Source of the DNA: Branchiostoma floridae | Lineage: Eukaryota > Chordata > Leptocardii > Amphioxiformes > Branchiostomatidae | Length of the DNA stretch: 64,000 bases | Direction of reading: 5' to 3' | NCBI RefSeq assembly: GCF_000003815.2 | Contig: NC_049984.1 | Coordinates: forward strand, 9,516,398-9,580,397 | Shown: positions 5,629 through 63,876 of the stretch, in pieces | How the letters are laid out: every line of letters begins with the position of its first letter | Numbering within the stretch: position 1 is the first letter of the stretch | Translations under genes and position numbers: made by a program | The notes under the pieces: model-generated | The model's input: the letters and a program-made list of their open reading frames with translations, nothing else | Database searches by the model: none | Told to the model about the DNA's origin: nothing

Positions 5629-8600
5629 ATGTCTGAAAAAGACAGACGGTTGTCTTCTGCGAGCTCGACGTCGACTGCAACGGAGAGGGGAGGGGGGCAG
5701 GAGAGAGAGAAGCTACAGTTGCTGTCCCTTTCCACTGGCAAGTTTATGGACATTCCAGAGAAAGACAGGGTTGGTTTCAACATTTGCAGAAGGTTTAGCA
5801 TGATCGTTACTTAGTGAACTGTTAGTTTTAGCCACTATTGCACTATGGTATAAACTTTGTATGATAAAAGTTACAGATACTAATGCCATAGTTTTAAAAC
5901 TAATTTTGATTAAATTGGTTAACTATGTTATTTGCATCCCCCTCATCAGATTGGTAAATGTCGGAGTGTTCAAGAGTTTGAGAAACTCAACAGACTCGGC
6001 GAGGGCACCTATGGCATAGTTTGTAAGTATGATACATCTTTGCTATGTTATTTGTGTTTCTTTCCCTTTGAATGTCTAGATTGTATCAAAAATATAATCT
6101 GAAATGTCAGTCTACAGTCACATGTTTGCTTTTTCAAATTTACATTTACGATACATCAGATTGATTAAAGAGTAATGTTAATCTTCCAATGTTCCAGATC
6201 GAGCCAGGGACACACGGTCCGGAGAGATTGTTGCTCTTAAGAAGATGAGGATGGATCGGGAGAAGGATGGTAAATCTGCATCCGTCTACCTCAACTGTAT
6301 AAACCTGGACACGTATTTGTGAAACTAATTTATGTATTGCAACATTACTATTCTTTGCACATGTCCATATCCATCCCTGTTTGTTTGTACATTGATCATT
6401 ATGCAATTGCTAGTACTAGTTATCTAATGCATTGTGGGCTAAGCAGATGAGATGGACAATGTGAAGAGACTACACACATGTATATGCATCCATCCCCATT
6501 CTAGACCCTTTGTTTTGTTTGTACTTACTAGCATTGATCATTATGTAGCTGACAGTACTAAGTAATCCAATGTATTGTGAGCTAAACAGTAAATAAGATG
6601 ATGAGATGGACCATGTGCAGAGACTATACAGGCTTTACATTGACGTCATACTAATCATAATTTGAATCCTGTGACGGCCATGTTGGCGGGTAATTGAATA
6701 AAGCATTAGCATCTTTGTATGCTTAACAGAAGTATGCTGACAAACATGGCGCAGATGATGTCAAATGAAGGAGGTTTGGACCTCCTTGGTCAAATGAAAG
6801 GCCTGAATATGCAAATTCTGTACTTTCCACTATCAAATGAAATGTATCGTTTACATCCCCCTCTTCCCCAGGACTGCCCATCAGTGGGCTACGTGAGATC
6901 ACACTGCTGCTGAATGTGACCCACAGGAACATTGTTGACCTGAAGGAAGTAGTGGTGGGGACCAAGAGTCTAGAAAGCATCTTCCTGGTCATGGAGTACT
7001 GTGAACAGGACCTGGCCAGCCTGTTAGATAATATGGACACCCCATTCTCAGAGGCACAGGTCTGTGTGGACCAATCTGATCAGAGCACTACTCATAGTTT
7101 CTTGCAATGGAAGTAGTCTAGTATCCAAACCTATAAGTATTACTGCCACTGAGTCTCTTTGTCTTATTTGTGGAAAACAACAAAAGACTTGGCAGCTATG
7201 GATACCAGGTTTGTATACCAGGCTATAACTAATATAATGGAAAGTCTTGTGATTTGAAGTTCAATGGAAGCTGCCATAGGATTAATTCTAGTTCACCTTT
7301 ATCTGCAGGGTAACCTAAATCCATTGTATTTACAAACATGATACTTATATATGGTGGTTTCAACTGCAAGAAATATATGAAAATATTTGCAATTTAAAAC
7401 CACCGTCCATTAATTTGATGTTTAAAAAGAAGGGTGTTCTGTCCTTGGTACTTCAGGTGAAGTGCATCATGCTGCAGGTGTTCAATGGGCTGGAATATCT
7501 CCATGACAACTTCATCATCCACAGGGACCTGAAGGTTTCCAACCTCCTCATGACAGACAAGGGCTGCATCAAGATTGGTGAGTCAGGTGGTGGGAATCAA
7601 AGGATACAAGCTACTGCTAAATGAGTGTAATACAATGTATTTTATTCTCTTAGGATATGATCCATCATACTAGGAAATCTTCACACTGATGCATGGATAG
7701 ATTCTACGCTGTCGGTAGTATACAATTTTGTTTTTAAGGTAAGGATTAGGTGTTATATATATTTGAGTTAAATATGTAAGTTCAGAGGACCTTGCATTGT
7801 GTTGAAATGTGAGTGCTATAAATATAGATGAGCTATAACTGTCATAGAATTATCTTACCCATAATTGATAAATGTAGGACCATGTTTTCAGTCTTCTCAG
7901 GTATACTTAAACATTGCTATGAAATTAATAGTTTTCACCAGCATACTAAAATGGATGAGATGTAAAATGGAAGTAACACGTTCTGTTGTTCTTGTATTCC
8001 ATTGTCTATAGCTGACTTTGGTCTTGCCAGAACATTTGGACTGCCACCCAAGCCTATGACCCCCAGAGTTGTGACCCTCTGGTACAGGTCACCTGAGCTA
8101 CTGCTGGGGGCCAAGACACAAACTACAGCTGTAGACATGTGGTAGGTTTCACTCTGCACCATAGATTGTTCATGCCNNNNNNNNNNNNNNNNNNNNNNNN
8201 NNNNNNNNNNNNNNNNNNNNNNNNNNNNNNNNNNNNNNNNNNNNNNNNNNNNNNNNNNNNNNNNNNNNNNNNNNNNNNNNNNNNNNNNNNNNNNNNNNNN
8301 NNNNNNNNNNNNNNNNNNNNNNNNNNNNNNNNNNNNNNNNNNNNNNNNNNNNNNNNNNNNNNNNNNNNNNNNNNNNNNNNNNNNNNNNNNNNNNNNNNNN
8401 NNNNNNNNNNNNNNNNNNNNNNNNNNNNNNNNNNNNNNNNNNNNNNNNNTTTTCCCCCATGCATATGCAATATATCAAACGGGAGAGCTATAACTCAAAT
8501 GTGGTGACTTGAATATCCTTTGTTACCTTTCAGGGCTGCTGGTTGTATATTTGGGGAGCTTCTGGCCCATAAGCCTTTGCTTCCAGGCAGATCAGAAATC

Positions 8601-12941: not shown

Positions 12942-15900
12942 TCACTGAGCATGAGTTTTATCCTCCCGTTGACTGATGATGGCCGTCCCAGTCAGGAAGC
13001 GAGCCACACCAAAGAGCAGCATGATGGCGATGGTCGTGGACATCACTGTTACGTAGTGGCTGATGCTGCGGAGAAACAGAGAGTTAATCAACAAGGTAGT
13101 CTCACATGTGCAACTGATGACAGTGGTGGAAGTATCATTCTGTGTATTCATTATCCATGAAATTTGGATGGAGGACTTTTTAATCATACCAAAGCAATAA
13201 GTAATACCTTGTGCCAATCTCCAGTCAACTGCCTGTGTCCTGCACCAGGAAGAAAAAGTGCTGGAGGAAACACACAAAAAAGATGCATTATGGTAAACCA
13301 TAATTTTAGTATTCTATAAAGTCATGTTTTTTATTTGCAAAAATCGGGTAATGTACTTAGATAAAAAAACTACTCCCATTACCATGTACTGTTAAACCTG
13401 CCCAAGACGACCACTCGGGGGACCGGGAAAAAGCGGTCGATTTGGACAGGTGGTCGCTGAGAAGAGTATCGACTCAAAACATGCCCGATGCAAAGTATAA
13501 ATAGTTTCCGTGGTGTTTAATGGCAAATAGCAATCCGCTGCCATCCTTATTCTAGCAATCCGCCGCCATCCTTATTCTAAACATAACATCGTAATGGAAG
13601 TCAAAATCCGACGCAAAATGGCCAATTTCGGCACAAAACCGCGATAGTTATCATCAAAAATCGATGAAAACCTCAATTTTGAAAATGACGCGGTCGTTAT
13701 GGGTCCCAATTTGGGCCGGTCGCGGTCGCGTTGGCCAGGTGGTCGTTGAGAAAAGGTCGCTTAATGCTTACGTCAATGGGAAAAAAATCGGGACCGAGAA
13801 AAAGCGGTCGAAATGGCCAGGTGGTCGCTGAGAAGAGGTGGTCGCTCGGGCAGGTTTGACTGTACTACTTTTGTAGTGTTCTATCATGTTACATGTTACC
13901 TACAAGCATGTTACTATCATTAAGAAAACAGGACTATCATAATATTGATCACTTAATAATCAATTGAATGGAAAATGTAATACAAACTGTATCTTCTTAC
14001 CAGTCCCATAAGATCAGACATCAACAGGACTGTCAGGAAAAGGCTGTTGAATGACAAGAAAAGAGATATTGATAGAAACATACACTGCTGGATGTTTGAA
14101 AAGTAGTTTTTTTTTTTTTTTACTCAATGGTCACCTCATAACAAGGCCTGAAGGCCACTCAATGTTACGGGTTACATGATTGGAACTGTAACAGCAACTC
14201 TTCGCCCTAGGTCAGAAACATCATGATTGAGACCAGCCCAATTGCTCACTATATAATAACTGACCCAATAGGCGAAGCAGGGGTTACGAGGGCTGCTCGG
14301 GAGATTCCCTACCCCTATTTTGGCCGGAATGGTTTGATCCGCTCGGGTGGATGTTCGCACATGTGGCGGGTTCTTTAACGTGCATAGGGTATGACTCTCC
14401 CCATACACGGGACCTCCATTTAACGTCCTATTCAAGGGACGACTCATTTTTCACTTGAGTAAAGTGAGGAAAGTCGTGTAAAGTGCCTTTCCCAAGGGCA
14501 CAAGACCGGCAACACGGCATGCGGATTCGAACCAGCGACCTCTCGGTCACGGGCCGAATACACTACCACTGTGCTACGCGGCCCCACAAACCTATGCAAA
14601 CATTGCTACCTGGGTGACAATCCACATCAAAAGTAAAAGCCCAAAAATATACATAATAATATATAGGCATGAAACTCTTGCATAAAATTTGGTCCAAACC
14701 TTACCACAAAGTAGACTTGACTTATCTACAGTGACATTTGATTACTGCATGTGTGTGGTGTACTAAAAGATAACATTTATAATCAAGAACTACAGTCATA
14801 GGATTGATAGAGACAAGAGATTAATGCCATATATCAGCTCATTCATGCTTATCTTTCACACCAAGTATGTACATTGATCATAATCACCTTCTTGTTGGCA
14901 CCTGTACTACCACATCTACTGCCCTGAACGCACAGGTCACCATCAGGAATGGAACCATGATCTACAAAAAAACAACAATTGAAAAGAAAAATAATTGAGA
15001 TATGTACATGTAAGCACATCAGTCCATAGAAACAACAAAGTTCATTACAGGGGAAAATCCTTGATAGAAGGACCAAAGAAGCCATTTATATTCAGAGCTT
15101 TACAACCTTTCCCTAAACAGACAAGGTGGGCACATAGACTTCCTGCAACTTATGATCCACTGCTCACTGAGTCATGTGTGCTCTCTACATAACATGACAT
15201 CACAGAATCAGTACACTGTTAATTCCTTGACAAAGGCTGGAGTTATTCAGTAAAAAAATTTTAGTGTTGGAAATTACAGTTCAACTTGTTCCAGAATGAT
15301 GTCTACCAACATAGATGAACTTTCATGTTAAAATTCATTACAATGAAAAATGAATAACAGTGAGTCCCCACCTTCAACAGCAGCAGTGAGCCCATAACGA
15401 ATGGGTTGAAGACTGTGAGAAAGCAGTATATGGACTGAGGGTCAAAACTGTAAGGAAAGAAAAATTATGTACCAAATGTTGATATAGGAGGTTTGAACGA
15501 TTTCCCATTTTTTTCTTTAGGACAGCCTATTTATAGGACAATAATCCTACAGCAATTAACATTATGTAGCCTTCCTAACTCTGTCAGTGAATCATGACAG
15601 TCAAATAGCGCTAGCGGAGTACAGCTCACCACCTTGGAGATGTAGATTTCCATACAGATTAACATTGTATACATGTAACAGTGTGACAGGTAATACCACT
15701 TCAACATATAACTTTAATGGAGGTGAAATGACATTGAGATTTCTAAAAATCTGCCTCACCTGTTAATACTTGCTATATTCCCTGTGCCAAAGAATGCTGT
15801 GATTATGAAAAATACCTGAGAGGATGGTTAAGGATCAACGTGACAAGGCAATACAATATAAGCCGCCATAAAACAGTCAAGGACGACGACTACACATTAT

Positions 15901-18900
15901 GATTCTGAACCATAATGTCATTACAATACAATGGATGATATCAAACAAACTACTAGTAACATGTACCAATACGAATCAAATTGACCAATGACATTAACAT
16001 GCTGGTTTAGCCTGTTTATAAAAGAAACTACTGATCAACAAATTACCAAATATTTGTAAGTGATCTACTTATAAAGGATAAAGATCTAGTAAGGATACAA
16101 AGAAATAGGCATGGCGAATGTTGTCTGTTGTCATCTGCTTTCTGTTGCTGTCTGGCAGCACTACTGTGAATGAAATGTCTTCCAGCTGGAAGAAATAAAC
16201 CGATTGACTTATTCAACACCAGAACAGAAGACAAGGTTTTCAATATACAACAAAAGCAATGGACAAAGCAAAATCTTAAGATGAAACAATCAGTACAGTA
16301 TGTTTACTAATCACTAAGGGATATGATGTTATTTGGAGCACAATGCCATGGACAAGTATAAGAAATACGTAAATGCAGTGTTACCTTTCTGTGACTATAG
16401 TTTGACAGTCCATGTTCCATTTGTAGCCAGAAGAACATGGTGAAACCCAAGGTCAGACAGAACAGGGCCTCATGAGTGGGGGGAGTCAAGGTCATAATTT
16501 GAATTACTGAGAAGCCCTTTTGACTTATCAATGTATCATTACATATGCTCTTAATAAGGTATATGCATTATATACAAAATATGTCCCAATGCATTGAAGC
16601 AGGTTTTTCTTAAATGCCACCAGCATTGCATTTGATCTTAATGACACATCATGGTACATGATTGTATAAGACCTTCCACATGTTATACATCAGGTAAGAC
16701 ACAAAATGTAGCTGCTACAAAAGGATATGCTGTGGACAGCAGCAGGTACAGGGTCATGAGGGCCAGGCTGATGCTGAGGAGTCTGGGATACAGCAGGCGC
16801 AGACTCAACAGGGGAAGCAGGAAGGTGCAACCTGCATGGGGGCCAGTACACACAAATAGATAAAAGTTATGACCCCCTCCTACAAAAGTAGTGTGTTCCT
16901 GATGTCACTGCTGGAAATAGATGGGTCATTCTGTGAACAAGGTTGAGATTGACCAAAAATTCAAAGGGGTATGTCCCTATCATTTAATTCAGTGTTGAAA
17001 GTAAAGTAAAGCATTTTCTATAACATATTCTACCAACACAGATAACCTTTCATGCTAAAATAGATAAAAGTGTTGAAGTTATTGACATTTCTGTAAATAT
17101 CCATAGGTAGTGCTGCAAATAAGTCTTTAGACAACCCTGTTCTCTTGAGACAAACAATTTCATAGGACATTCAAATTACTCTAAGATTTGCAATTGCTTA
17201 CTTATCATTTCGTAAACTGTCATGGTTTATCAAAAGAACAGTAAGATTTATTACTGACCTAACATGGTCCAACTAAACACTTGGTTGAAGACAGGGTTGC
17301 CCTCCTTGTTCAGCAGACTGGCAGCTGTACTGTGTCTCACATATATAGACATGACCATCAACAGTATCTGAAGGGGTGACAGATATGAAGATTAACACAA
17401 ATAAGATCTTGCTACACAAACTTTCAAGCACATTATCTGAGTCTGACTCAAAAAGCAGTTTTCATCAAACAGAAAAGGAAGAAACAGAGACAAACACTGG
17501 ATGTATTACATCACAATCATGTATTTTATGTGGACCACTGGATGAATAGCAGGCAACATAATATTGTTAGCTAAATGTGGATCTAAATAAAGTCAAAGTC
17601 AACTCAACACTGACCTGTGTTATGATCAATACAAGGGATGATTTGGAGTTACTTGACAGAAGTTTGGTCTCTTTTCTGTTCAGAAACAAATTTGATTATT
17701 ACAGCAAAACCCATGATACATTCTGCAATCAGAAGAATGAAAAAATATCATTGTGAAATAGAGAGAGGCAGGAGAATAGCAACCAGACCTCTCCATATCT
17801 GACATTACCTTGAGGCACACCAAAAGGCAGCAACAGCCCCAAGGATTCCTGCCCAAATCCTAAAATCAGAAGAAATTTTGGTATTTTGTAAGATTTTGGA
17901 AAGTGGGAGTGATGATGAATGATAATCACACAAAAAACAATATCTTTAATCATAAATGGCATGTCTTCCTAGAAATGTTAAGACACTTTCAGAATAATGA
18001 TTCAGTGCTTACACCAATGAGTAATTTGGCTCTCTTCCAACGACTGGCAGCGTGGGGAAAACAGCCAGAAGTAGGGAGGATACAGTCCAGCCCACCAAAG
18101 CCATCTGCAGAAAGTGAAGTACCATAGATAAAATAAAGAATTGGTCACTCTTCCTGTAGTAGTTGCGATCACTCAAAATTTAGTATTGGGAGATGTTACA
18201 TCAGAATTTTTTCCAAACATTTTATACTGTTAACATCAATGCAAACGTCTCTGGTAATTGGCTTGTGAGAGGTAATTGGCTTGGAACAATGCATTCCCAC
18301 CTGTCCACAGTGGATATTGGGAGCCAGCCAAGGCCACAGGGCCATGGCCACTAGTCCTAATGTCAGCAGCTGTCGCCAGAAGAAACTCAAAACCTGCACG
18401 GGTCGTACAACAGGACTAATCTTTAGTACTGTGACATAAGACATCACAGGACGAATAGCTGCTATAAATAAGATACAAAGTACCAAAGATAGGCACAATG
18501 TGTGGAACTGATAAATGATTCTGTTCCAATAAGAGACACAGCATGGAGAACTGATACATGATTTAGCACCAAGGACAGGCACAATGTGCACAACAGATAC
18601 ATGATTCAGCACCAAGGAAAGGCACAATGTGCACAACTGATACATGATTCAGCACCAAGGAAAGGCACAATGTGCACAACTGATGCATGATTCAGCACCA
18701 AGGAAAGGCACTATGTGTGGAACTGATAAATGATTCTGTTACAATGAGAGACACAGCATGTGGAACAGCTACTTCAGCACACCTACCAACAGCTCTAAGC
18801 TGAGAACTGCAAGTACACAGGACCCAAGCAGTGAGAGAGCCAGGTTGTTGGTCTTTATGTATTCCGCCAGCCTGTAAATGTCAGATCCTCTGCAAAGGGA

Positions 18901-21572: not shown

Positions 21573-24500
21573 TATGGATATTCATCTTCTTTAACAAATG
21601 ACAGAAAGCAAAATATTTTACAAGTGTCTTAAAATAGAATCTAACCATTAATTCAAGATATAATGGTTTATGAGTTAAGTCAAAATAGATTGTCCTACCA
21701 TAGAAAGAGCCTGTCATAGGTGTGATAATAATGTAGTCCTTTCAGAGCAAGGTCTATCAGCTCTCTGCACTCTAGTATCTGAAAGCAGTTAATTGAAAAA
21801 GCAAGTCAATTGGGAATAGATCAGTTATATAAACATGACTAAACAAAGGGCAGATACAGCATACAGTACTGGCATATTATTCAGTACAAATGATGTGCAC
21901 AATGTGTGGAACTGACACATGATGCAGCACCAAGGATAGGCACAATGTGTGGAACCTTGATTCAGCACCAAGGACAGGCACAATGTGTGGAACTGATGCA
22001 CGATTCAGTACCAAGGACAGGCACAATATATAGTAGTTATATGATTCAGTAGGAAGGACAGACACAATGTGCAGAACTTATATATGATTCAGTACCAAGG
22101 GCAGGCACAATGTGTGGAACTGATGCATGACTCAGCAACAAGGATAGGTACAATGTGTGGAACTGGTATATGATACTGTTCCAAGGATTTGCTCCACAGT
22201 ATGAGGAATTGATACATGGCTCAACACCAGGGACAGACATGATACACAGTACAGATAAATGATTCAGCACCAAGGACAGGCACAGTGTGAGGAACTTATA
22301 CACGATTGAGCACCCAGAGGAGACACAGTGTGTGTTAAAGATACATGAAAAGTAAAGCAAAAAATAACTTACTGCCTTTTGATACTGCTGTGTCTGCATC
22401 AAACTGATAATGTTTCTAAGCATGTTTTGTTGCTTGCTGGGTGTCAGGTCACTACGAGGGTAAAATATGAGATGAAATATTAACAAAATGTTTCCTTTCA
22501 AGGCCTTTGAAAATCTTTCAAAATGGTGCTATTTGTCAATATCAGCAAAGTAAAGCATAAAAATGAAAAGTAAAGCTCTACCTGTATGGAATGAAGAACA
22601 TTGATAATGTTGTTTCCCTCTTCTGCTTCATTTTCACCTGGGACAAACCAAAAATACAACACCATTTCTTATCACTTAGAAATGGCATTAAGCCCAGACA
22701 GAAATAATAACAAAAATATAAAGACAACAGCATTTGCACAGAATTTAGAAGGACATGGATCAGAGCTCACCTCAAATTGATCCACCACCTGTCTGGCATT
22801 AGTAAACAGACTCTCTGCCTTAAACCCATCCGTGTTGTCTAAATAGTCCAAAGGAAGGGTGCCCTAAACATATCAAACCAAAATGTTGAAGTTACAGTCA
22901 ATCACCAAATAACTATCAGGGTTCAAAATCAACCAAATGTACCTGTTTCAAAATTGATTACACTTGATGATCACATCAACAAAGCTAAATACTGTAAATG
23001 CAGAAATGTTCGCGGTGGCTTTATGTTTGAGGTTTTTGCGGTAGCCACTTCACCGCAAACTTAAAACCACCACAAACATTTTTCCATTATAGGTTTTTAC
23101 TACAGTCAATGGTGCTACCACGAACTTAAAACCACCGCGAACACTCCATTTTTTCGCTTCCACAAAAGTAAATCCCTGTAAACTTACATGTATTTACAGT
23201 AGAAAACAACGCTTACCACAGAGTTGAGTGGGAAAGGGACTCCAATGAGAGATGACATGAGAGGAGCGATATCTGCCTGTAAAACAAATGTTGTTAGAGC
23301 TATGTGAAAAGCTGTACTCCTTTATTTGATACATATCCAGACAATATTTTCTTGCATTTCAAATGGAGTACACATGAATAACCAGAAAGATATTGTCATG
23401 AAAATAAGCAGCTTGAGATAAATCTAAAACATTTCTGCTGTACCTGGTTCACATCACATCTTCTGATGTTCTCCAGCTTCCATTCTGTAAAAAAGAGAAA
23501 TTGTGGATAAACCTGAACTGCTGTTTTTTGTTCTCAGCTTGACAGCTTTATATGGAATCAGTTAAATACATACTCCTTAAATAAACTTGGGTATCAACGT
23601 AACATTAGGAAGAATTTTAGCTCAGCTTTTCACCATACCAATCTAGTTCAATTAGTTCTAGAGCAGAGTAACTATAACATAACTGACCCTGACCAAACCC
23701 ATCCATGTAGTCCTGGGTGTTTCCAGACTGAGGTCCTGCTACTCCTGCTCCCCAGGCCAGCAGGGGGGTCAGGGTTTCCGAGGGGTGGCCCGCACCATGG
23801 GAGCCTACAGGGGTGGGAAGTACAGTATTTATCTGTACATGCTTGACTATACAAAACCATGAGCATATGGAATGTGGCATCAAATAGCCAAGTGGGTAGG
23901 CTAGTGGACATGGGAGTTTGTGAGTTTGATCCCTGGCATTTCTTGCGAGACATTGTCTCATCAGAAAAGGCACTTTACATGACTTACTTCACTCCATCCA
24001 GGTATAATAACAGGTACATGACTTGGTTAGGGAGGTAAAGGTGGTGGAACCTAATGCTCCTATGGACTGATGTGCACCAACTGTTGACAATCAAGCTAAT
24101 AAACGGATGTATCATAAATGTACCTCTCATGCATCTTACATAATATGAAATTACTGATTTGGAATTTGTGCTTTTGAATTATTGCAAAATTTCACTCGGC
24201 GTACCCAAAAGCTCTGTCAACGCCGCGGTCAGGGGTGAGCTAGGAGTTTTCCCACTTTATATTGATTCACAGACACAGATGATAAAATACTGGCTTAGGT
24301 TACATAATCTCCCAAATGACAGACTTGTAAAGAAAGCATATAATACTTCTGTTGAGCTACAACAAGACTGGGCTGTGCATGTGCAAGATATGTTAAGTAG
24401 ACATGGTTTCCAAAATGTTTGGCTTAATCCTGCTGTTAATGCCAACCGTTTGGAAATATATTTAAGAACCGTCTGCAAGACACGTTTCTCTCTGGTTGGA

Positions 24501-26894
24501 GACAAGAATTAAGAAGTTTTAACAAACTCAGTACTTATTGTAAAATCAAAAAAGAATTCTGTTTTGAAAAATATCTTTCATCTGTTCAAAACAAATTGTT
24601 TAGAAATGACCGAACGAGACTAAGGATTAGTGCACACACCTTACAAATTGAAAAGGGCCGACACTACAACATACCAGCCAATGAGAGACTTTGTCCCACA
24701 TGCCATAATGACATAGAAAATGAATTTCATTTTGTAATGGATTGTCCGACTTATGAAGAAGAACGTCAAAAGTTATTTCAAAATATTGTATGTAAGTCCG
24801 AAATTGTACTGCCACATGCTAGGTCAGAGGTATTCCATTTGATATTATCATGTCCTGTTCATATATCTGCCTATGTTGGCCAATTTATTTACAACTCATT
24901 GCAAAAACGAGATAATGCTTTATGATACTCACTAGATTGTTTATACTGTTATATTATATTACATTAGTTGTTAGTTATTTGTATTAGTATATAGTTGTTC
25001 ACATTGCCATACATTGTAACTGTTACAATTGTTGCGCAATAAAGTTCTTCTTCATAAAAACTCACTGTAACAGTGAGTCTGTTTCTCTCTGCTATCTGTT
25101 GTGTGATCATGATGTAAAGATAGTTGTGAATTGAAAAGGACTGATACACACCCCAGTCAGTCATGCCATGGTCTGATGTGAACACATAGGCTGTCTGACC
25201 ATCATGTTGGAAAAACTCTTCCAACAGTCCAACTGTCTTCTGTATCCCAGCATCCACCATACGGATGTTCTCTAGATATTCACTGAAATACAGAAATACA
25301 AGTTTGACAGAATCACAAAAATGCACGTTAAAAGCGCCATTTTCTGCTGCAAATTGAGATGATCTCTACTTCAACAAAGCATGTTCTTACTTTGACATGG
25401 GTCTGTAGGCATGACCACTGGTGTCAATCCCCAACAGGTGTAAGAACAGTACCACTCTGCTCTGCTGCAGGGATCCTCCAAGAGTCTCATTATTATGGGC
25501 TTCCTGCAGGAATGCCTATGGTGGAAAATTGCATGTGTAAATCAAAGTACTCTGCAATGTTCCTAGTCCAGAGTACAATGGTATGTACTAATTGTCATAA
25601 CAAGAAAGTAGATGCAATTACAGACTGATCTCACCTCCACCCTCTCAAACACCCAGTTGTCCAGTTTTCCTGGGTCAGAGTCTGCAAAGTCCTCCTCCTC
25701 AGAACTGTACATGTAGGTGTGCACATGGTCACCTGTTGCACCTGTTTGAACAAGGGTGGAATGTCAAAAAGCAAGACAATGTCAACAGTAAGGATGCAAA
25801 TCTTAAGCATTATTCCCTGGCAAAGCTACTTACCTTTGATCCACTATTGTGATCATGATAAGATACAACAGCCTTAAGACCTTGTCTGTCTTTTTCAGGC
25901 ACTTACCTTTGGCAAACATAGGCAGGATGTCAGGGCTTCCCCAGGCCCATGTCTCTTGGCTCTGATTAAATACTGAGTCAAACTCCACTGGATTCTCCTT
26001 CCAACCTGAAAACACATTCATAGTTATGTTATATACAGAGCAGGAATGCGAAACTACAAGTAAGATATACAGGATTACTAAAACAACTGGTGATGAACAA
26101 GAATAACTTGCATAACATAGAGGCAACTGCTCTGTAAACAATATACACTGTCGACGAGCATATATTTTAAGCATGCAAGTAAACGTCTGTAAAGTGAGGT
26201 TTCCGCACTAGTACAGTTATTTTGATCATCTGTATTGTCATTCTCGTATAGGACTGTTTAGCCACAGTTGACGCTGTAGGGCTGATATATTAGGATTTTA
26301 CCAAGGTCAATATTGACCAAAGGAGGCCATATATATTTTGATCATTGAAAATGTCCTTGCAACCATAACCAACCTTTAGCCACTGCACTGACATCTTCGT
26401 AGAAGCCAGCTATGAGAGCCACATGGCCTGGCCTCGACTCTGTCGGTACTCGAGTATGGGACACTCCCCAGGTGCCTCTGGTCTGAATGATATCCCTACG
26501 AAAGGTTCATGTACAGTGAAGTGATGAATATTAATAAAGGTAAAGACAAAATCCTGGACAGAATATGTGGGCATACATCTCCACAAGTTGTAACAGGTTG
26601 TGCAACTAGATGTACATTAATGAAAGTCTAATTTAACGTACTGTCAGAGACTGTTTCATTGATGTAACTTTACCTGAGATATGGTGCCCTTGTCTGTCCA
26701 TGTTTGTCCAGCTCGAAGAATCGGTCAGCACGAAGTCCGTCTCCTACAAACAGCACCAGCCTCTTGGCAGGGGGTGGGGCGGGGGTGGAGTGTGGGGTCA
26801 TACCATGCACCAGGGGGGAGGTGAAGTAGATGTCAAAGATGGAGGCAAAATAGATGACGTGGACAGAAAGAGCACCCAGAAAAAACAGCAACAT
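12942..26894 (-). CDS. PIGN: GPI ethanolamine phosphate transferase 1 (PIG-N), 31 coding exons
   Basis: Minus-strand exons start at 26894 (ATG), 26495, 26005, 25741, 25515, 25282, 23804, 23484, 23276, 22863, 22637, 22451, 21778, 21500, 20168, 19205, 18889, 18393, 18104, 17859, 17675, 17367, 16831, 16475, 16185, 15815, 15447, 14961, 14043, 13260 and 13065-12942. All phases agree, giving 938 codons (human about 931). The enzyme adds ethanolamine phosphate to the first mannose of the GPI anchor in the ER. The N-terminal membrane anchor is followed by [39 protein letters not shown] and [19 protein letters not shown], the metal and phosphate site of this alkaline-phosphatase-type fold. A multi-span C-terminal membrane region follows. 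Oddities: an AT-AC U12 intron (16728-16476), and an in-frame TGA at 13227-13225 (codon 892) where the family has Trp in GSWLDIGTSISHYV. Taken at face value, the last 46 residues are lost. Confidence 0.93.
13225..13227 (-). other. PIGN: In-frame TGA in the penultimate PIGN exon
   Basis: Exon 13260-13208 reads [11 protein letters not shown]-stop-LEIGT. The preceding exon ends in phase 0, and the following exon completes the split Ser codon to give [11 protein letters not shown], so the frame is fixed on both sides. TGG to TGA is a single-base change. It could be a sequencing error, a null or hypomorphic allele, or a leaky stop (TGA followed by C). Confidence 0.85.
13389..13862. mobile_element. 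MITE with TA target duplication in a PIGN intron
   Basis: Inverted ends: CTGTTAAACCTGCCC.. at the left and ..GGGCAGGTTTGACTG at the right, flanked by TA (13387-13388 and 13863-13864). The interior is rich in GGTCG/CGACC motifs. No coding capacity was seen. It sits between the penultimate PIGN exon and the exon ending at 14001. Confidence 0.7.
14106..14586 (-). mobile_element. tRNA-derived SINE
   Basis: On the minus strand the element starts with a tRNA-like head. A-box-like TAGCACAGTGG is at 14577-14567, and a perfect B-box GGTTCGAATCC at 14533-14523. It runs through about 390 bp of body and ends in an A15 tail (T run at 14107-14121 on the + strand). The head cannot fold as a complete functional tRNA gene and is followed by unrelated body sequence, so this is a SINE copy in a PIGN intron. 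Confidence 0.8.
18480..18775. repeat. Minisatellite array 1, 43-bp period, RE1-like core
   Basis: About six units in a PIGN intron. The clean part repeats with a 43-bp period (18601 to 18644). Each unit contains ATTCAGCACCAAGGA(A/C)AGG followed by CACAATGTG. One copy (18562-18578) fits the REST/NRSF consensus NTYAGMRCCNNRGMSAG without mismatch. Three copies differ by one base (GGAAAG for GGACAG). Confidence 0.85.
19329..19743. mobile_element. 415-bp foldback MITE with TA target duplication
   Basis: The ends are inverted: GCCTGGAATCCAGCCGTA.. and ..ACGGCTGGATTCCAGGC, flanked by TA (19327-19328, 19744-19745). Pairing continues inward through GTGCTTTGGTCGCT and the CTTCCTG..TGGCATTCGTTA block, giving arms of about 75 bp. 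There is no coding capacity. It lies in a PIGN intron. Confidence 0.8.
20260..21349. mobile_element. 1.09-kb TIR element with 6-bp target duplication (AAAAGG)
   Basis: Direct repeats AAAAGG at 20254-20259 and 21350-21355 flank inverted ends about 90 bp long (left ACACCCTCACACTCAGGG.., right ..CCCTGAGTGTGAGGGTGT). The arms share the block CCTAACGATATCA and the CAACTCAGCCACAGAAT stretch. The interior has frames of up to 137 residues (20367-20780) that resemble nothing I know. Superfamily is not assigned; a 6-bp duplication is not typical of the common groups. Confidence 0.85.
21890..22345. repeat. Minisatellite array 2, RE1-like core
   Basis: About nine diverged units of roughly 40-45 bp in a PIGN intron, of the form GATTCAGCACCAAGGACAGG plus CACAATGTGTGGAACTGAT. 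They are the same sequence family as the array at 18.5 kb. Copies at 21961-21977 and 22263-22279 fit the REST/NRSF consensus exactly. Others carry one or two changes. Confidence 0.85.
22992..23199. mobile_element. Short MITE (CTGTAAATGCAG family), copy 1
   Basis: Ends CTGTAAATGCAGAAATG.. and ..ACATGTATTTACAG, flanked by TA on both sides. The inside carries GCGGTGG and CCACCGCGAAC blocks that pair. The same family recurs at 43779-43965. Confidence 0.75.
23885..24115 (+). mobile_element. Degenerate SINE copy
   Basis: Contains a B-box-like GAGTTTGATCC (about 23918) followed by GGCACTTTACATGACTTACTTCACT. That block is shared with the SINE at 14.1-14.6 kb and in part with 60.1 kb. No poly-A tail is seen; it abuts the LINE fragment. 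Confidence 0.5.
24140..25050 (+). mobile_element. 5'-truncated LINE (non-LTR retrotransposon) 3' end
   Basis: Frames 24159-24512 and 24596-24925 are two pieces of one C-terminal reverse-transcriptase region, broken by a frame change between them. The first holds [29 protein letters not shown], typical of the post-RT region of CR1/L2-like LINEs. The second holds [16 protein letters not shown] and the zinc-knuckle [20 protein letters not shown]. The element ends near an AATAAAG. It is inserted opposite to PIGN in its intron between exons 23804 and 25152. Confidence 0.8.
24159..24925 (+). pseudogene. LINE ORF2 C-terminal remnant, frameshifted
   Basis: This is the coding part of the LINE fragment described for 24140-25050. 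It keeps the CxxC..H..C zinc-binding knuckle but lacks the endonuclease and RT catalytic core. A stop after GDKN and a shift to another frame show that it is dead. Confidence 0.75.
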
Positions 26895-40000: not shown

Positions 40001-43000
40001 ATCAGGTTGGGTACAACCATGTGACTTTGAACAAAGCCATATTCATCATATTTGTGTATATAAAGAGAAAAGATAAAGGGTATCTTATCAATATCCATCT
40101 TTAATTCCAGCAGTGATTTAGTTGCTTTTGTCATGATAGATTTCTTGGTCGCCGGAAACATAGTCACTGTGTTGAAGAAATGTTGTCTGATCTTTCGTAC
40201 AGGAGTCAGACAGAAAACAACTGATCAAGTTCATGCAAGACATCCTGACAACCCTGTCCCTCTCCCATGCACCCCTGGACAGCATTCAAGCAGCATTCCT
40301 GGAACTAGGGTAAGTTATAGTCTCAAGTAATCTCTGTTAATGGATTAATAACTGACTGGCTGTTTTTTTTTCTGTTCTGCACTAATTTGTTGCTGATGCT
40401 GACTGACTTCCACACTAATAGTATTTCTCTATATCCTGAAGACTACTGGAGTGCAGATATCTATGGTCCTGTCCTTGGTGCTGAATAATGTCCCCCTAAA
40501 GACTACCTGTGCAGATATCTGTGGTCCTGTCCTTGGTGCTGAATAATGTCCCCCTAAAGACTACCTGTGCAGATATCTGTGGTCCTGTCCTTGGTGCTGA
40601 ATAATGTTCCCTAAAGACTACCTGTGCAGATATCTGTGGTCCTGTCCTTGGTGCTGAATAATGTCCCCCTAAAGACCACCTGTGCAGATATCTGTGGTCC
40701 TGTCCTTGGTGCTGAATAATGTCCCCCTAAAGACTACCTGTGCAGATATCTGTGGTCCTGTCCTTGGTGCTGAATAATGTCCCCCTAAAGACTACCTGTG
40801 CAGATATCTGTGGTCCTGTCCTTGGTGCTGAATAATGTTTCCACCAATGCTGAATGACAGTCGTCACAATATAACAGTTCCCCAGTCCTACTTGCTCTGT
40901 GTATCCAGCTGATATCTGTCCTTGGTGCTGAATGGTCTTCACACTAATACTGCTTGTCACTTTCCCAGTTGCTGAGCAATAAATACACCAACAACTTTCC
41001 ATCTGCTGAGGGACATTCACAATCAAATATTCCTGCTCTCCCTACCAGTCTAAGGATCATTCATACTTCCAGTCCACACTCCTGTCCTTGGTACTGAATG
41101 GTACTCACCCTGATTTTGAAGCATCTCATTTGGATGCCTCATAGCATTTACACCCACATTTATACCTATCTTCAAACCTTTATGAGCTTGATATTGCTGA
41201 CCTAGATCAAAATGTAATTTACCCTGATTCTTGATATTTTTCTCTTACATGTAATGATGTTTGTGTAAACTTATTTACACTCCTTGTACAACTCTAGCCT
41301 CTAGCACAGAATGACATTAACACTGATGAATCTGAATAACATCTGAAGTTTCTGTGATTCTGCCTGTTGATTGTGCTGACCTCCTCCCTTACACCTGGTG
41401 ATGTGCGTTAGTCACACAGGCAGTCTTTCCCTCAGGTCGGACGCCGTGTACCACGAGTCCCTGCTGACCGTACTGTGGGACGGCGTCGTCCACACCTCCG
41501 CTTTAGTACGGGCATCGGCGGCCAGAATGTTTGAGGTACCATTTATATAGTACATCATTTACGTACCATTGTACATGTATCTTATTAGTAGGAAGCATCC
41601 GTCCTTCCTTCCTTACAGGTTCTGGCTAGAACTCTGGTAGGAAGAATAAGGAAAAAAGTTGTGTTATCTTGAAATCCATTCAACTGAATGCAACATGTTG
41701 CATGATCACAATCTGACCAGGCAACCTTCACCATTAATTGCTAGCCTTACACAAATGTAATGTTACATGGTTGAATTAAAAGGGCAATATTCTTATCATT
41801 GCCCTCCAACATTAAGCTATATGGGTACATTTCAACTGCAGTTTCCCTCAGTGTCACCAGGTGGCATACACTTAGCTTTAACTACTTTATTTAGGGCAGA
41901 ACTACATTGTATGTATTTTACTGCATGTGTTTCTCCCCTAGATGCTGATTAAGGGTGTACAGGAGACCCTGGTGTCCATGCGAGTGGTGCCTGCTCTTAT
42001 CACTCTGTCTACAGACCCAGAAATGTAAGTCAGCATTCATCCGTTTACTGTGGGAAACTATGAAGATACCCTAATTCTTGTAATCTTTAAATGTGCTAGT
42101 AATAGTATTTTATCTACCATTTGCTATTATTTTCATAACTTTCAGAGTTAGACCATGTTAACTGCCTATTTGGCTTGGCTTGTACCATCTCTCTCAATTT
42201 GTTCATGTTTGAACGTACCATCTATTTAAGGTAAGGGAGATGTACAAAGCAGTGTAGGATAGAGTCTTGATTTCTGTAATGTCCATAGTCATCAGTTGGT
42301 TAGAGTAACCAGTTGTTCTCCTCAGGTCTGTCCGTATAGCGACCATCCCAGCCTTCGGCACCATCATGGAGAGTATCACCCAGAAGGAGACTCTGGACCG
42401 TGTGCACATGCAGTTCCAGCAGTTCCTGGATGACCCACAGTACCGTGAGCAGCACACGCTTCACGTGGAGATCATCAGGACCTTCGCACGCATCGGCCCC
42501 AACGCTGAACCAAAGTTTCGGGATGAATGTAAGAAGAATGGTCTCAGTAGGCAATAGTAAACAACCAGTGCAGAAGTATGAAGGATTCTTTGTTGGAAAA
42601 AAAATTGTGCAGTAAAGTACCCATTGGTTGGGGCCCTTCCGCACTGGTGTGTATATTCAAGTCCATATGAGTTGCATATTGACATTTTGTTTTATTTGGG
42701 TTAGGTTTGTTGGAAGAAGTATTTTTATTTTGACCCACCGTTTTGCAGCCTAGTTATCAAACTGAAAAACAACTTCATTGGGCACAAACTTATCTTAAGC
42801 AAAAATATGTCAATATAGAAGTCATATGAACTTGAACATACACACAAGTGTTCCGGAGACCCTGTATCTTGAAATCCAATGTTTATGATGGGACTTTCTC
42901 TTTTAGATTATATATACATGTATACAACAAGAATCAAGCTGACTATGCATTGTGACACCTTGTACAAAATTAGTAGGTCTCTATGTACTTGTGGGAATTG

Positions 43001-56584: not shown

Positions 56585-58228
56585 TCATGCAGTCCTGGAC
56601 CGGGCGCATGTGTACCCCACCGTGACGTACTCCGGGTCCGGCGAAATCTGCCAGACCTCCTCGCTGTCCTTGCGGAGGACGTTGAGCTTGTACTCCACCG
56701 GCAGGCAGCGCAGGTCGCGCCGAGGAGCCCCCGTGGCAGGGTCGATACAGCGGGACCCCGTGTGCGTCTTCACCGCTACCCGGAGGGTGTGCGGGAACCG
56801 GTTGGCCTCAAAGTCGTCCTCATACCTGTAGGAAGTCAGTAGAATGATTTTGAGTTGTTAGTCTTTAATTTATTTTGAGTTAATTATGTAAGTTATTACT
56901 CCTATGTGCGATTATGTATGTCTTATGTTTATGCGATTGTTAAGTTGAAGGGCTCCCTTGGAAAACAGTTTCTCGTAAACTAAAGGGACGACCCTACAAT
57001 ATCAATAAATAAAAATAGGTCGAGCAAGACAGACTGGCACTTAGCAGAGAAAACTGGTTAGACTGGCTGTAGGGGAAGTCGAAAGAAAATGTTCTCCGGG
57101 GAAGAACCCTTCAGCACTCATTCGTTACTATTTCAGCAATCATAGGGAACTTTTATTTTGCTTGGAGGTAAATCCAGAGATATTTCCTGACACAGAGAGC
57201 AAAAAGAATAAAAGTACTAAAAGTAAGAAGGCGTCTGTAGATAGCTTCATGAAGTTAACATAGGATGTGCTAGTGGACTGTGTTGAAGTTTTACTCACCG
57301 CCATGGGCAGACAGAACGGCCTTGGATGTTAGCACCGTCGTCGAAAGGGATCGGGGGCTGGGAGAGGTGCCTTCGGTAGTGCTCAGGTAGAGCGTCCGAG
57401 TCTGAATCTGAACCTGAGTCTGTCACATCTCTTGGCCGGCGGGAGTGGACGGCGGCGTCCCCACGGCCGTACACGGGGTACCGGAGCTGGTGGTGAGCTA
57501 GCCTCGCCAACAGGCCGTCCGAGCTCGCTTCTCCCTCCAAACGATCAAAGTTGTTAAATTGAAGAAACTTCTCACGAAGATTTTCTGTCGTCGAGACAGT
57601 GGGGTTTCTCCTGGTCTCGTCTTCTTCTGAGGCTTGTTGTAGAGCTGTCACACTTTTTGGGTGCGTGACAGATAGTGGGATGTCTTCTGTACGTGACTGT
57701 TGGTCCAGGTCTGAAGACGACGACCCATCTACGTCAATCGGATGATCAGTCGGACGAGCAGACGTCATGAGGGGCGACGTCATCACAGCGATCACGAGAG
57801 CGACAATCTGGTGTGAAATGTGAAAGAAAATTATCTACCTGAGCGCACAGGTACAAGGCCACGATATTACCGGTCTACGACATGACATCGCTGTACACAG
57901 CAATAAAGAACACTGGATCTGAAGAAATTCTGTCTAATGGAACTATATCAAGACTCCATGTTACGAGGCAGAAAAGCACTATGCTCACGTGCCTTGGTGC
58001 GTCTAAAAATCTCGGAGACAAATAATATTGATTGTGTCCACCACAACGCGTTATACACGTCTGTCATTGAACATGGACGGGCTTGGTTGTCAGAAAAACG
58101 AGAAGAAGGGGTCTTATACAGAAGAAGCGTTAAAGCACAAGCGTATCTTGTCTGATATGCCATTGAATATTAGAATCAGAAGGCTAAGCTTCCATATCAA
58201 GTTAAGTACTCACCATCGGATGTTCCAT
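56585..58228 (-). CDS. Interleukin-17-like cytokine precursor A
   Basis: Minus-strand exons 58228-58214 (ATG, 5 codons), 57807-57299 and 56825-56585 give 254 residues. The N-terminus MEHPMIVALVIAVMTSPLM is a signal peptide split by the first intron. A long serine/acid-rich pro-region runs to RRPR (128-131), a furin-type site. The mature part has CPWR (172-175), YEDDFEANRFP, GSRCIDPATGAP, CLPVEYKLNVLRK and YVTVGYTC. These fit the IL-17 pattern (CPW..RYP..C.C/ID..G..PI..VLR..VGCTC). IL-17 dimers signal through IL-17 receptors in mucosal defence. Here the first cysteine of the VGCTC motif is Tyr, and its usual upstream partner is also absent. The last exon is GC-rich. Identification rests on motif pattern only; the family is called with good but not full certainty. 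Confidence 0.8.
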
Positions 58229-62636: not shown

Positions 62637-63876
62637 CTAGCGAGGTTCCGATCCGGCACACGTGAAGCCGATAGTCACGAACTCATACGACTCTTGCCAC
62701 TCGCCCTCGCTGTTTTTCCGCAGGACGTTCAGCTCGTAGTCTATCGGGAGGCAGGCGAGGTCGGCCCGAGGCGCCCCCGTGGCGGGGTCGCGGCACCGGG
62801 AACCCGTGTACTCCTTCACGGCCACCTTCAGCGTCGACGGGAAACGGTTCGGCTCAACGTTGTCTTCATACCTAGATAAATGAAGAAACACAGTCCATGG
62901 TCAAGTCCTTTTTCATCGAGTATATGCTATAATTTGCTTACGTCTAGAGTTAGTCGTGTTCGTGTTCCTATATTGTCATTTTTTTCAAACATGAATCGCG
63001 TCATGATCTATACTGATGATAGAGCTGTTGTCTCTGACTTGATACACCTACAACAAAATGACTGTTACCTCCACTGGCACATAGACCGCTCGTTGTAACC
63101 GTCATCTACAGGTACGGGTGGTTGGGAGAGGTACCGGCCGTGGTGGCGGGGAAGCTCGGCGGGGCTGGCGGTGGGGGTCGGGGCTGTGACATCACGGCGT
63201 CTGCGCGACAAGACCGGTCTATCTTCTCGCTGTGTCAGCTCGTGACGTCTCAAAGCAAGGTCTGTGAAGCCGTCTAAATCTGTACCGGGGGAAGAGAGGG
63301 GCATCCCCTCCGTGGGCCGCAAGGTCTGAAGCAAAGCGACCAAGAAAACGATAACGACTGTCACCTGAAAATAGTTCAAAGTACAGTCAAAATAATAACA
63401 GTAATCCCTATTTCAAGAAATCTGGTGATGTGTATCAAGTGGTCAAGAAAATGTCACACGTCTGCACAAAAGAAATGGCTTAGTAGAGACATTGTTTGAC
63501 AGGTTGCAAGCTACGCCACTGCAATAGGTTACTGTCTCGATTTTCTTACCAAAATGATTCGACACCGACCATGTCATAGGTGTCAATACCATATTGCCAA
63601 CCGACAGGTTAACAGCCGACTTAGCATCCGCTTGTGGATACACATGTGAGAAACAGTTGGAATGACAAATAGAAAAGTACACATGTAAGGAAAGTTGCAT
63701 CATAGAAATATCCCCACTTATAGAAAGATCAACACATGACGAATAAATGATGATGCAGATTTTACATTAAGTCTCATGCCCCGTCATATCTTATTTCATC
63801 ATCATAAACAGGTATTAAATCTACAGAAACCCCAGCAAAATCCCAGAGAAGCAGAAGCTGTACTTACAGAGCTCAT
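62637..63876 (-). CDS. Interleukin-17-like cytokine precursor B
   Basis: Minus-strand exons 63876-63868 (ATG AGC TCT), 63364-63069 and 62871-62637 give 179 residues. It is a paralogue of the gene at 56585-58228 with the same intron phases. The signal peptide MSSVTVVIVFLVALLQT is split by intron 1. A shorter pro-region ends in RRRR (57-60), followed by DVT as in the paralogue. Then come YLSQPPVPVDDG, MCQWR (Pro of CPW replaced), YEDNVEPNRFP, GSRCRDPATGAP, CLPIDYELNVLRK and FVTIGFTC. As in paralogue A, the first Cys of the VGCTC motif is replaced (Phe). Predicted to be secreted and cleaved by a furin-type protease. The nine-base first exon is inferred from frame and splice sites. Confidence 0.8.

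Follow-up and report, generated by a model that had tools for sequence, protein, structure and literature searches.

RE1-like 17-bp sequences in the genome of Branchiostoma floridae and an intronic minisatellite that contains them

The repressor REST (NRSF) and the element to which it binds, repressor element 1 (RE1, also neuron-restrictive silencer element, NRSE), have to our knowledge been described mainly from vertebrates. According to a 2023 review, NRSE motifs have been characterised in vertebrates, with humans, mice, rats and fugu named (PMC10605157); core positions 2–9 and 12–17 of the human element are far less variable than the remainder (PMC1794552), and the 2-bp spacer between the two half-sites of RE1 is non-conserved (PMC3529185). 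Here we analyse a stretch of 64,000 nucleotides (the window) from contig NC_049984.1 of the amphioxus Branchiostoma floridae (positions 9,516,398 to 9,580,397), in which an apparent intron holds a tandem array of the 17-bp core TTCAGCACCAAGGACAG, together with the copies of this core elsewhere in the genome. Judged by its pattern of sequence variation, the core is a genome-wide site that a DNA-binding protein of the bipartite, RE1 type probably recognises.

The core in the window and across the genome

The eight minus-strand copies reported in the initial annotation are all present within positions 40469–40932, with 0 mismatches each to the 17-bp RE1 consensus given there (half-sites as in PMC3529185). 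They account for eight of the window's 11 consensus matches, a number that compares with a mean of 0.02 and at most 1 over 100 shuffles. The remaining three lie in two arrays that were absent from that annotation (Table 1), whose 43-bp units differ in sequence from the 58-bp unit of the intron array and carry the core on the opposite strand. As the same core is found inside unlike units, the question extends from a single array to the genome.

The chance estimate that accompanied the annotation treats tandem copies as independent. The units of the 58-bp array are nearly identical (97% matches between units), so that its tandem copies represent one amplification and not eight chance events. A chance match is excluded instead by the counts over the whole genome (513,431,437 bases, 431 contigs), rather than by the array of the window alone: the exact 17-mer occurs 1,970 + 2,374 = 4,344 times, against 0 + 0 for the reversed-pattern control and 0.057 expected from base composition. 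Places were listed for 100 matches per pattern, all on contig C1; those of the exact 17-mer form 58 clusters at a 2-kb gap, with 48 singletons.

Flanking sequences were compared in 40 four-kilobase loci picked from these 100 places, favouring copies outside visible arrays. The loci hold 43 exact copies, 24 of which have no copy of ≤4 mismatches within 400 bp. Among these 24 isolated copies strong information is confined to positions 1–17, and the identity of the 20+20 nt flanks has a mean of 0.263 and a maximum of 0.5. Past position 17 there is a weak lean to G/A at +18 and to C/T at +21, and +21 is C or T in 35 of the 43 AA copies. Since the flanks are unrelated beyond the 17 bp, the isolated copies are not a transposon; a transposon or other interspersed repeat is thus ruled out for the copies examined, all of them on C1 (the 24 isolated copies, and the 17 singletons inspected by eye that are described below).

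Spacer variation and the proposed reader

When any base is allowed at the spacer, positions 10–11, the genome-wide number of copies rises to 3,462 + 3,965 = 7,427 (+71%), whereas the same freedom at positions 4–5, the single control pair that was run, gives 2,028 + 2,489 = 4,517 (+4%); the control is 1 + 0 in both cases. The spacer is other than AA in 41.5% of the first set, and the pair at 4–5 is other than AG in 3.8% of the second. Because arrays could inflate the spacer counts, singletons (no other listed copy within 2 kb, degenerate neighbours being possible) were counted separately: 17 of 33 have a non-AA spacer, against variation at 4–5 in 2 of 44 (Fisher p 2.3e-6, from two 100-place lists that do not cover the same part of C1 and reach 8.73 and 14.91 Mb). 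The listed singletons show 10 kinds of spacer, AA included. By eye, all 17 non-AA singletons have only the two half-sites in common, and one of them (L079) sits among degenerate copies. With the spacer free and positions 4–5 nearly fixed, repeat drift hardly explains the core, and a bipartite, RE1-type DNA-binding protein does. The initial annotation's term RE1-type is thus supported, given the 15/15 fixed bases, the thousands of dispersed copies, the unrelated flanks of those compared, and a degeneracy that affects the spacer but spares the one control pair.

We propose that a sequence-specific DNA-binding protein recognises the dispersed 17-bp set TTCAGCACC-NN-GGACAG. It would read two half-sites separated by a free 2-bp spacer, in the way that REST of vertebrates reads RE1. 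Constraint by this protein may be what causes the copy number, the dispersal, the sharp limits of the block, the spacer degeneracy and the same-strand clusters. The binder could be a REST homologue, or could be REST-like in recruiting repressors; that it is REST itself has about an even chance. The intronic array would then be a homotypic cluster that offers the binder several sites, and the simplest expectation for several adjacent sites would be that they repress locally or sequester the factor. The role of docking platform, decoy or seeding source raised in the initial annotation is, for this array, conjectural.

The likeness extends to the 21-base element. Table 1 of PMC1794552 (16 rows) lists 14 distinct human sites, and a matrix was made from these. 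The score is 25.8 for the 58-bp units, 22.8 for the spaced copy and 22.6 for exact copies that lie in 43-bp units, and the training sites themselves score 18.3–33.8. The best null score was 18.4 (30 Markov sequences of 64 kb), a maximum that the skipping of windows lacking both A at 4 and G at 5 can have lowered only slightly. A score of the units below threshold, which the initial annotation had named among the results that would refute its reading, is therefore not what the matrix gives, with the 3' tail CGCC still missing.

Sites with expanded half-site spacing are also used by vertebrate REST. This arrangement has 171 matches genome-wide (control 1 + 2). Among 100 of the 171, gaps of 7 and 8 keep 4 and 7 matches, respectively, once those with canonical-like sites are set aside, and each of the remaining gaps in the range 3–14 retains 0–5, which is suggestive of expanded spacing in the amphioxus set, not decisive. 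A separate feature of the same 100 is a double right half-site, in which a canonical site is followed 5–6 bp on by a second GGACAG; it is found in 43 of them (gaps 7 and 8), for example at C2:21693345-21693753.

A REST orthologue was looked for with PF24540 and with two queries, fingers 2–8 of human REST and the REST C-terminal finger. PF24540 gave at least 21 matches (150 of 4,003 candidates scored), and eight of these loci align with the human fingers at about 31–41% among the 30 rows listed, values that are not diagnostic. The best match to fingers 2–8 reached 153 bits and 45% (150 of 4,254 candidates scored). The C-terminal finger gave one match, C4:20253612-20253704 (E 2.4e-4, 48%), directly before a stop codon, and the predicted zinc-finger gene to which it belongs is the one diagnostic lead, a weak candidate for a REST orthologue. 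Contigs C158, C200, C323, C16 and C10 contain many close-set C2H2 zinc-finger matches, resembling large gene clusters.

Several observations count against the proposed reader of the sites. None of the three queries found a REST orthologue, in a search that was incomplete; the matches to fingers 2–8 are repeated fingers that look unlike REST (alignments L057, L062, L064 and the start of L061), and the C4 candidate (L065, L066) is a multi-exon zinc-finger gene in which, by eye, the helix residues of the neighbouring fingers differ from those of REST. The vertebrate 3' tail CGCC (positions 18–21) is missing in the units, which end in GACC or GCAC. A degenerate copy lies within 400 bp of 19 of the 43 exact copies, so that some singletons may be array remnants. 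Within the two 43-bp arrays of the window the core shows little or no conservation beyond that of its flanks (identity 0.725 vs 0.749, and 0.707 vs 0.645). Finally, the amphioxus copies seem more uniform than human RE1s, with departures at positions 4–5 rare; all 15 fixed bases are matched by 2 of the 14 human sites. Ordinary site turnover should leave many near-matches; this apparent uniformity is the main result against plain binding-site turnover. It reflects either a stronger constraint than that on vertebrate RE1s, or young copies, or copying.

Tandem growth and possible copying

The intron array lies between two apparent exons with splice signals, read on the + strand (by eye), in keeping with the intronic location in the initial annotation. 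The host gene name given there, RELCH, was not confirmed: of four peptides from the region, one of them in a wrong frame, two match no family and two have only matches that score well short of the cut-off. The spacing of 57–58 bp stated there applies to the first seven cores (58, 58, 57, 58, 58 and 58 bp); the eighth follows the seventh after 100 bp, and a ninth core with one mismatch lies 166 bp past the eighth.

Table 1. Arrays, core copies and the apparent intron in the window
Feature	Position	Strand	Basis or match
58-bp minisatellite with seven exact RE1-type cores; 6.7 copies of the unit	40451..40838	-	Tandem Repeats Finder (TRF), period 58, + core scan
RE1-type core TTCAGCACCAAGGACAG, copy 1	40469..40485	-	0 mismatches
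RE1-type core, copy 2	40527..40543	-	0 mismatches
RE1-type core, copy 3	40585..40601	-	0 mismatches
RE1-type core, copy 4	40642..40658	-	0 mismatches
RE1-type core, copy 5	40700..40716	-	0 mismatches
RE1-type core, copy 6	40758..40774	-	0 mismatches
RE1-type core, copy 7	40816..40832	-	0 mismatches
RE1-type core, copy 8, outside tandem array, flanks differ	40916..40932	-	0 mismatches
RE1-type core, copy 9, TTCAGTACCAAGGACAG	41082..41098	-	one mismatch
Apparent intron holding the array (after ...GGAACTAGG/gtaagt, before ctcag/GTCGGACG)	40310..41435	+	limits by eye
43-bp array with same core, one copy fitting RE1 consensus	18482..18736	+	TRF + core scan
43-bp array with same core, more diverged, two exact copies	21874..22314	+	TRF + core scan

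Neighbouring cores (≤4 mismatches, no more than 400 bp apart) in the window and the 40 loci share a strand in 101 of 102 pairs, and the commonest core spacings are 43 (25), 44 (9) and 58 bp (6). The 43–44 bp period, about four helical turns, recurs in the C1 arrays L002, L018, L044 and L046, whose flanks are partly different. Core and flank identity are 0.907 vs 0.766 in L018 and 0.865 vs 0.724 in L044, values that favour the core, as the units of these two arrays were placed by the core itself and those of the window arrays by register. Taken with the two window arrays this is a mixed result, and array growth therefore looks ordinary. In the window, in L002 and among the 40 loci there are 98 near-copies with 1–3 mismatches. 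Their locus-variant events are most frequent at positions 3 and 11 (12 at each, 1–9 elsewhere), counts in which tandem near-copies are not independent.

We consider it likely that the 58-bp array is an ordinary minisatellite that grew from a single one of a very large number of dispersed 17-bp sites, and nothing distinguishes it from the other arrays seen. The pure minisatellite drift suggested in the initial annotation is unlikely as the source of the core, though the growth itself seems ordinary. That the repeats are functionless altogether, an ordinary minisatellite or other repeat with an RE1 match by chance, would agree with the plain tandem growth and with the little or no extra core conservation in two of four arrays. 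We regard it as quite improbable, given the number of exact copies, the unrelated flanks of those compared, and a degeneracy that falls at the spacer while the control pair hardly varies.

In humans, too, minisatellites of separate loci have a short core in common. By analogy, the 17-bp word might have spread by mutational copying (short templated insertion, conversion, or a PRDM9-type recombination signal that seeds minisatellites), its likeness to RE1 being coincidental. The apparent uniformity of the copies, the same-strand clusters and the recurring 43–44 bp periods would agree with such copying. It offers, however, no reason for free bases exactly at the REST spacer, singletons included, unless several spacer subfamilies were copied, nor for the agreement of all 15 fixed bases with the RE1 consensus, and we think it unlikely.

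At 7439-7455 (minus strand) a core copy with three mismatches coincides with what looks like the 3' splice site of a gene for a kinase (by Pfam), which we take to be CDK10. Among the other features of the window are an IL-17-like peptide at 56588-56857 (-) (Pfam PF06083, E 7.8e-10), a frame at 62640-62900 (-) that resembles it, and an open frame at 24440-24922 (+) that by eye resembles the C-terminal part of a non-LTR (long terminal repeat) reverse transcriptase.

Small RNAs and comparison with known systems

The 17-nt core is contained in a small RNA annotated as a microRNA of Branchiostoma belcheri, bbe-miR-2060c-3p (gttcagcaccaaggacaggc; PMC5650284), which by eye agrees with the 43-bp units at 19 of 20 nt and with the 58-bp units at 18 of 20. 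A text search of the open literature for the 17-mer or its complement returned, in the text accessible to it, the amphioxus small-RNA study and three mouse studies, the latter likely primer matches judging by their titles. The repeats could act as RNA: the + strand transcript of the intron would be complementary to bbe-miR-2060c-3p, and the array would be a target or sponge, or a source of small RNA. Besides the shared core, the apparent exons flanking the array are read on the + strand, in agreement with this. A hairpin excess is absent, however: each of 53 exact copies was folded in two frames, and a hairpin with the mature arm paired forms in 7 of the 106 folds, against 10% of 400 random stretches, so that a pre-miRNA is rejected for these copies, which fold no more than random DNA. 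Inverted core pairs (≤4 mismatches, within 250 nt) do not occur in the window and 48 loci, except for two degenerate pairs in L034, and a set of small-RNA targets would not be expected to show spacer degeneracy. We therefore hold an RNA role to be highly improbable. The annotation of bbe-miR-2060c-3p as an amphioxus microRNA merits a fresh look. The only Rfam match in the window is a tRNA-like one at 14512-14583 (-), with 29.5 bits against a cut-off of 29, possibly a tRNA-derived repeat.

Thousands of perfect cores that follow the REST spacer rule in an invertebrate chordate would place the site, perhaps also its reader, earlier than vertebrates, and the origin of neuronal gene silencing would become testable; the arrays would also illustrate clearly how a probable binding site can give rise to tandem clusters. 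Put more broadly, this animal would carry perfect RE1 cores in several thousand copies, less variable than those of humans and in many cases now minisatellites. A REST-like repressor older than vertebrates could then act over thousands of sites, or the site could multiply by copying that is linked with its binder or with a small RNA bearing RE1; we give this broader account somewhat less than an even chance. Among the papers listed by searches of the open part of PubMed Central, a scope outside which most subscription journals fall, we saw no report of dispersed RE1/REST sites in amphioxus in titles, openings of abstracts or the passages inspected.

Jeffreys-type minisatellites share with the amphioxus arrays unlike units at different loci, one short common core and tandem growth; in amphioxus, in contrast, the core also stands alone at many loci and shows a two-part degeneracy. 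The amphioxus "mirage" minisatellites, which duplicate exon–intron boundaries (PMC3087553, PMC3902484), are likewise tandem repeats inside amphioxus genes, but this type is rejected for the present array, which lies wholly inside the apparent intron (Table 1). With bbe-miR-2060c-3p the common element is the 17-nt core, and the difference is that the amphioxus copies folded show no excess of hairpins. The NRSE small modulatory dsRNA, which is described as bearing RE1 and activating REST targets (Kuwabara 2004, as cited in PMC10605157), is also a small RNA carrying RE1 sequence, and is a parallel only. Compared with RE1/NRSE, the site of vertebrate REST/NRSF, the amphioxus set has tandem arrays and far more copies that match every fixed base. 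It shares with RE1 all 15 of the fixed bases of the 17-bp core, an arrangement of two half-sites around a free 2-bp spacer, and, for the amphioxus unit, a 21-mer score in the range of the human sites.
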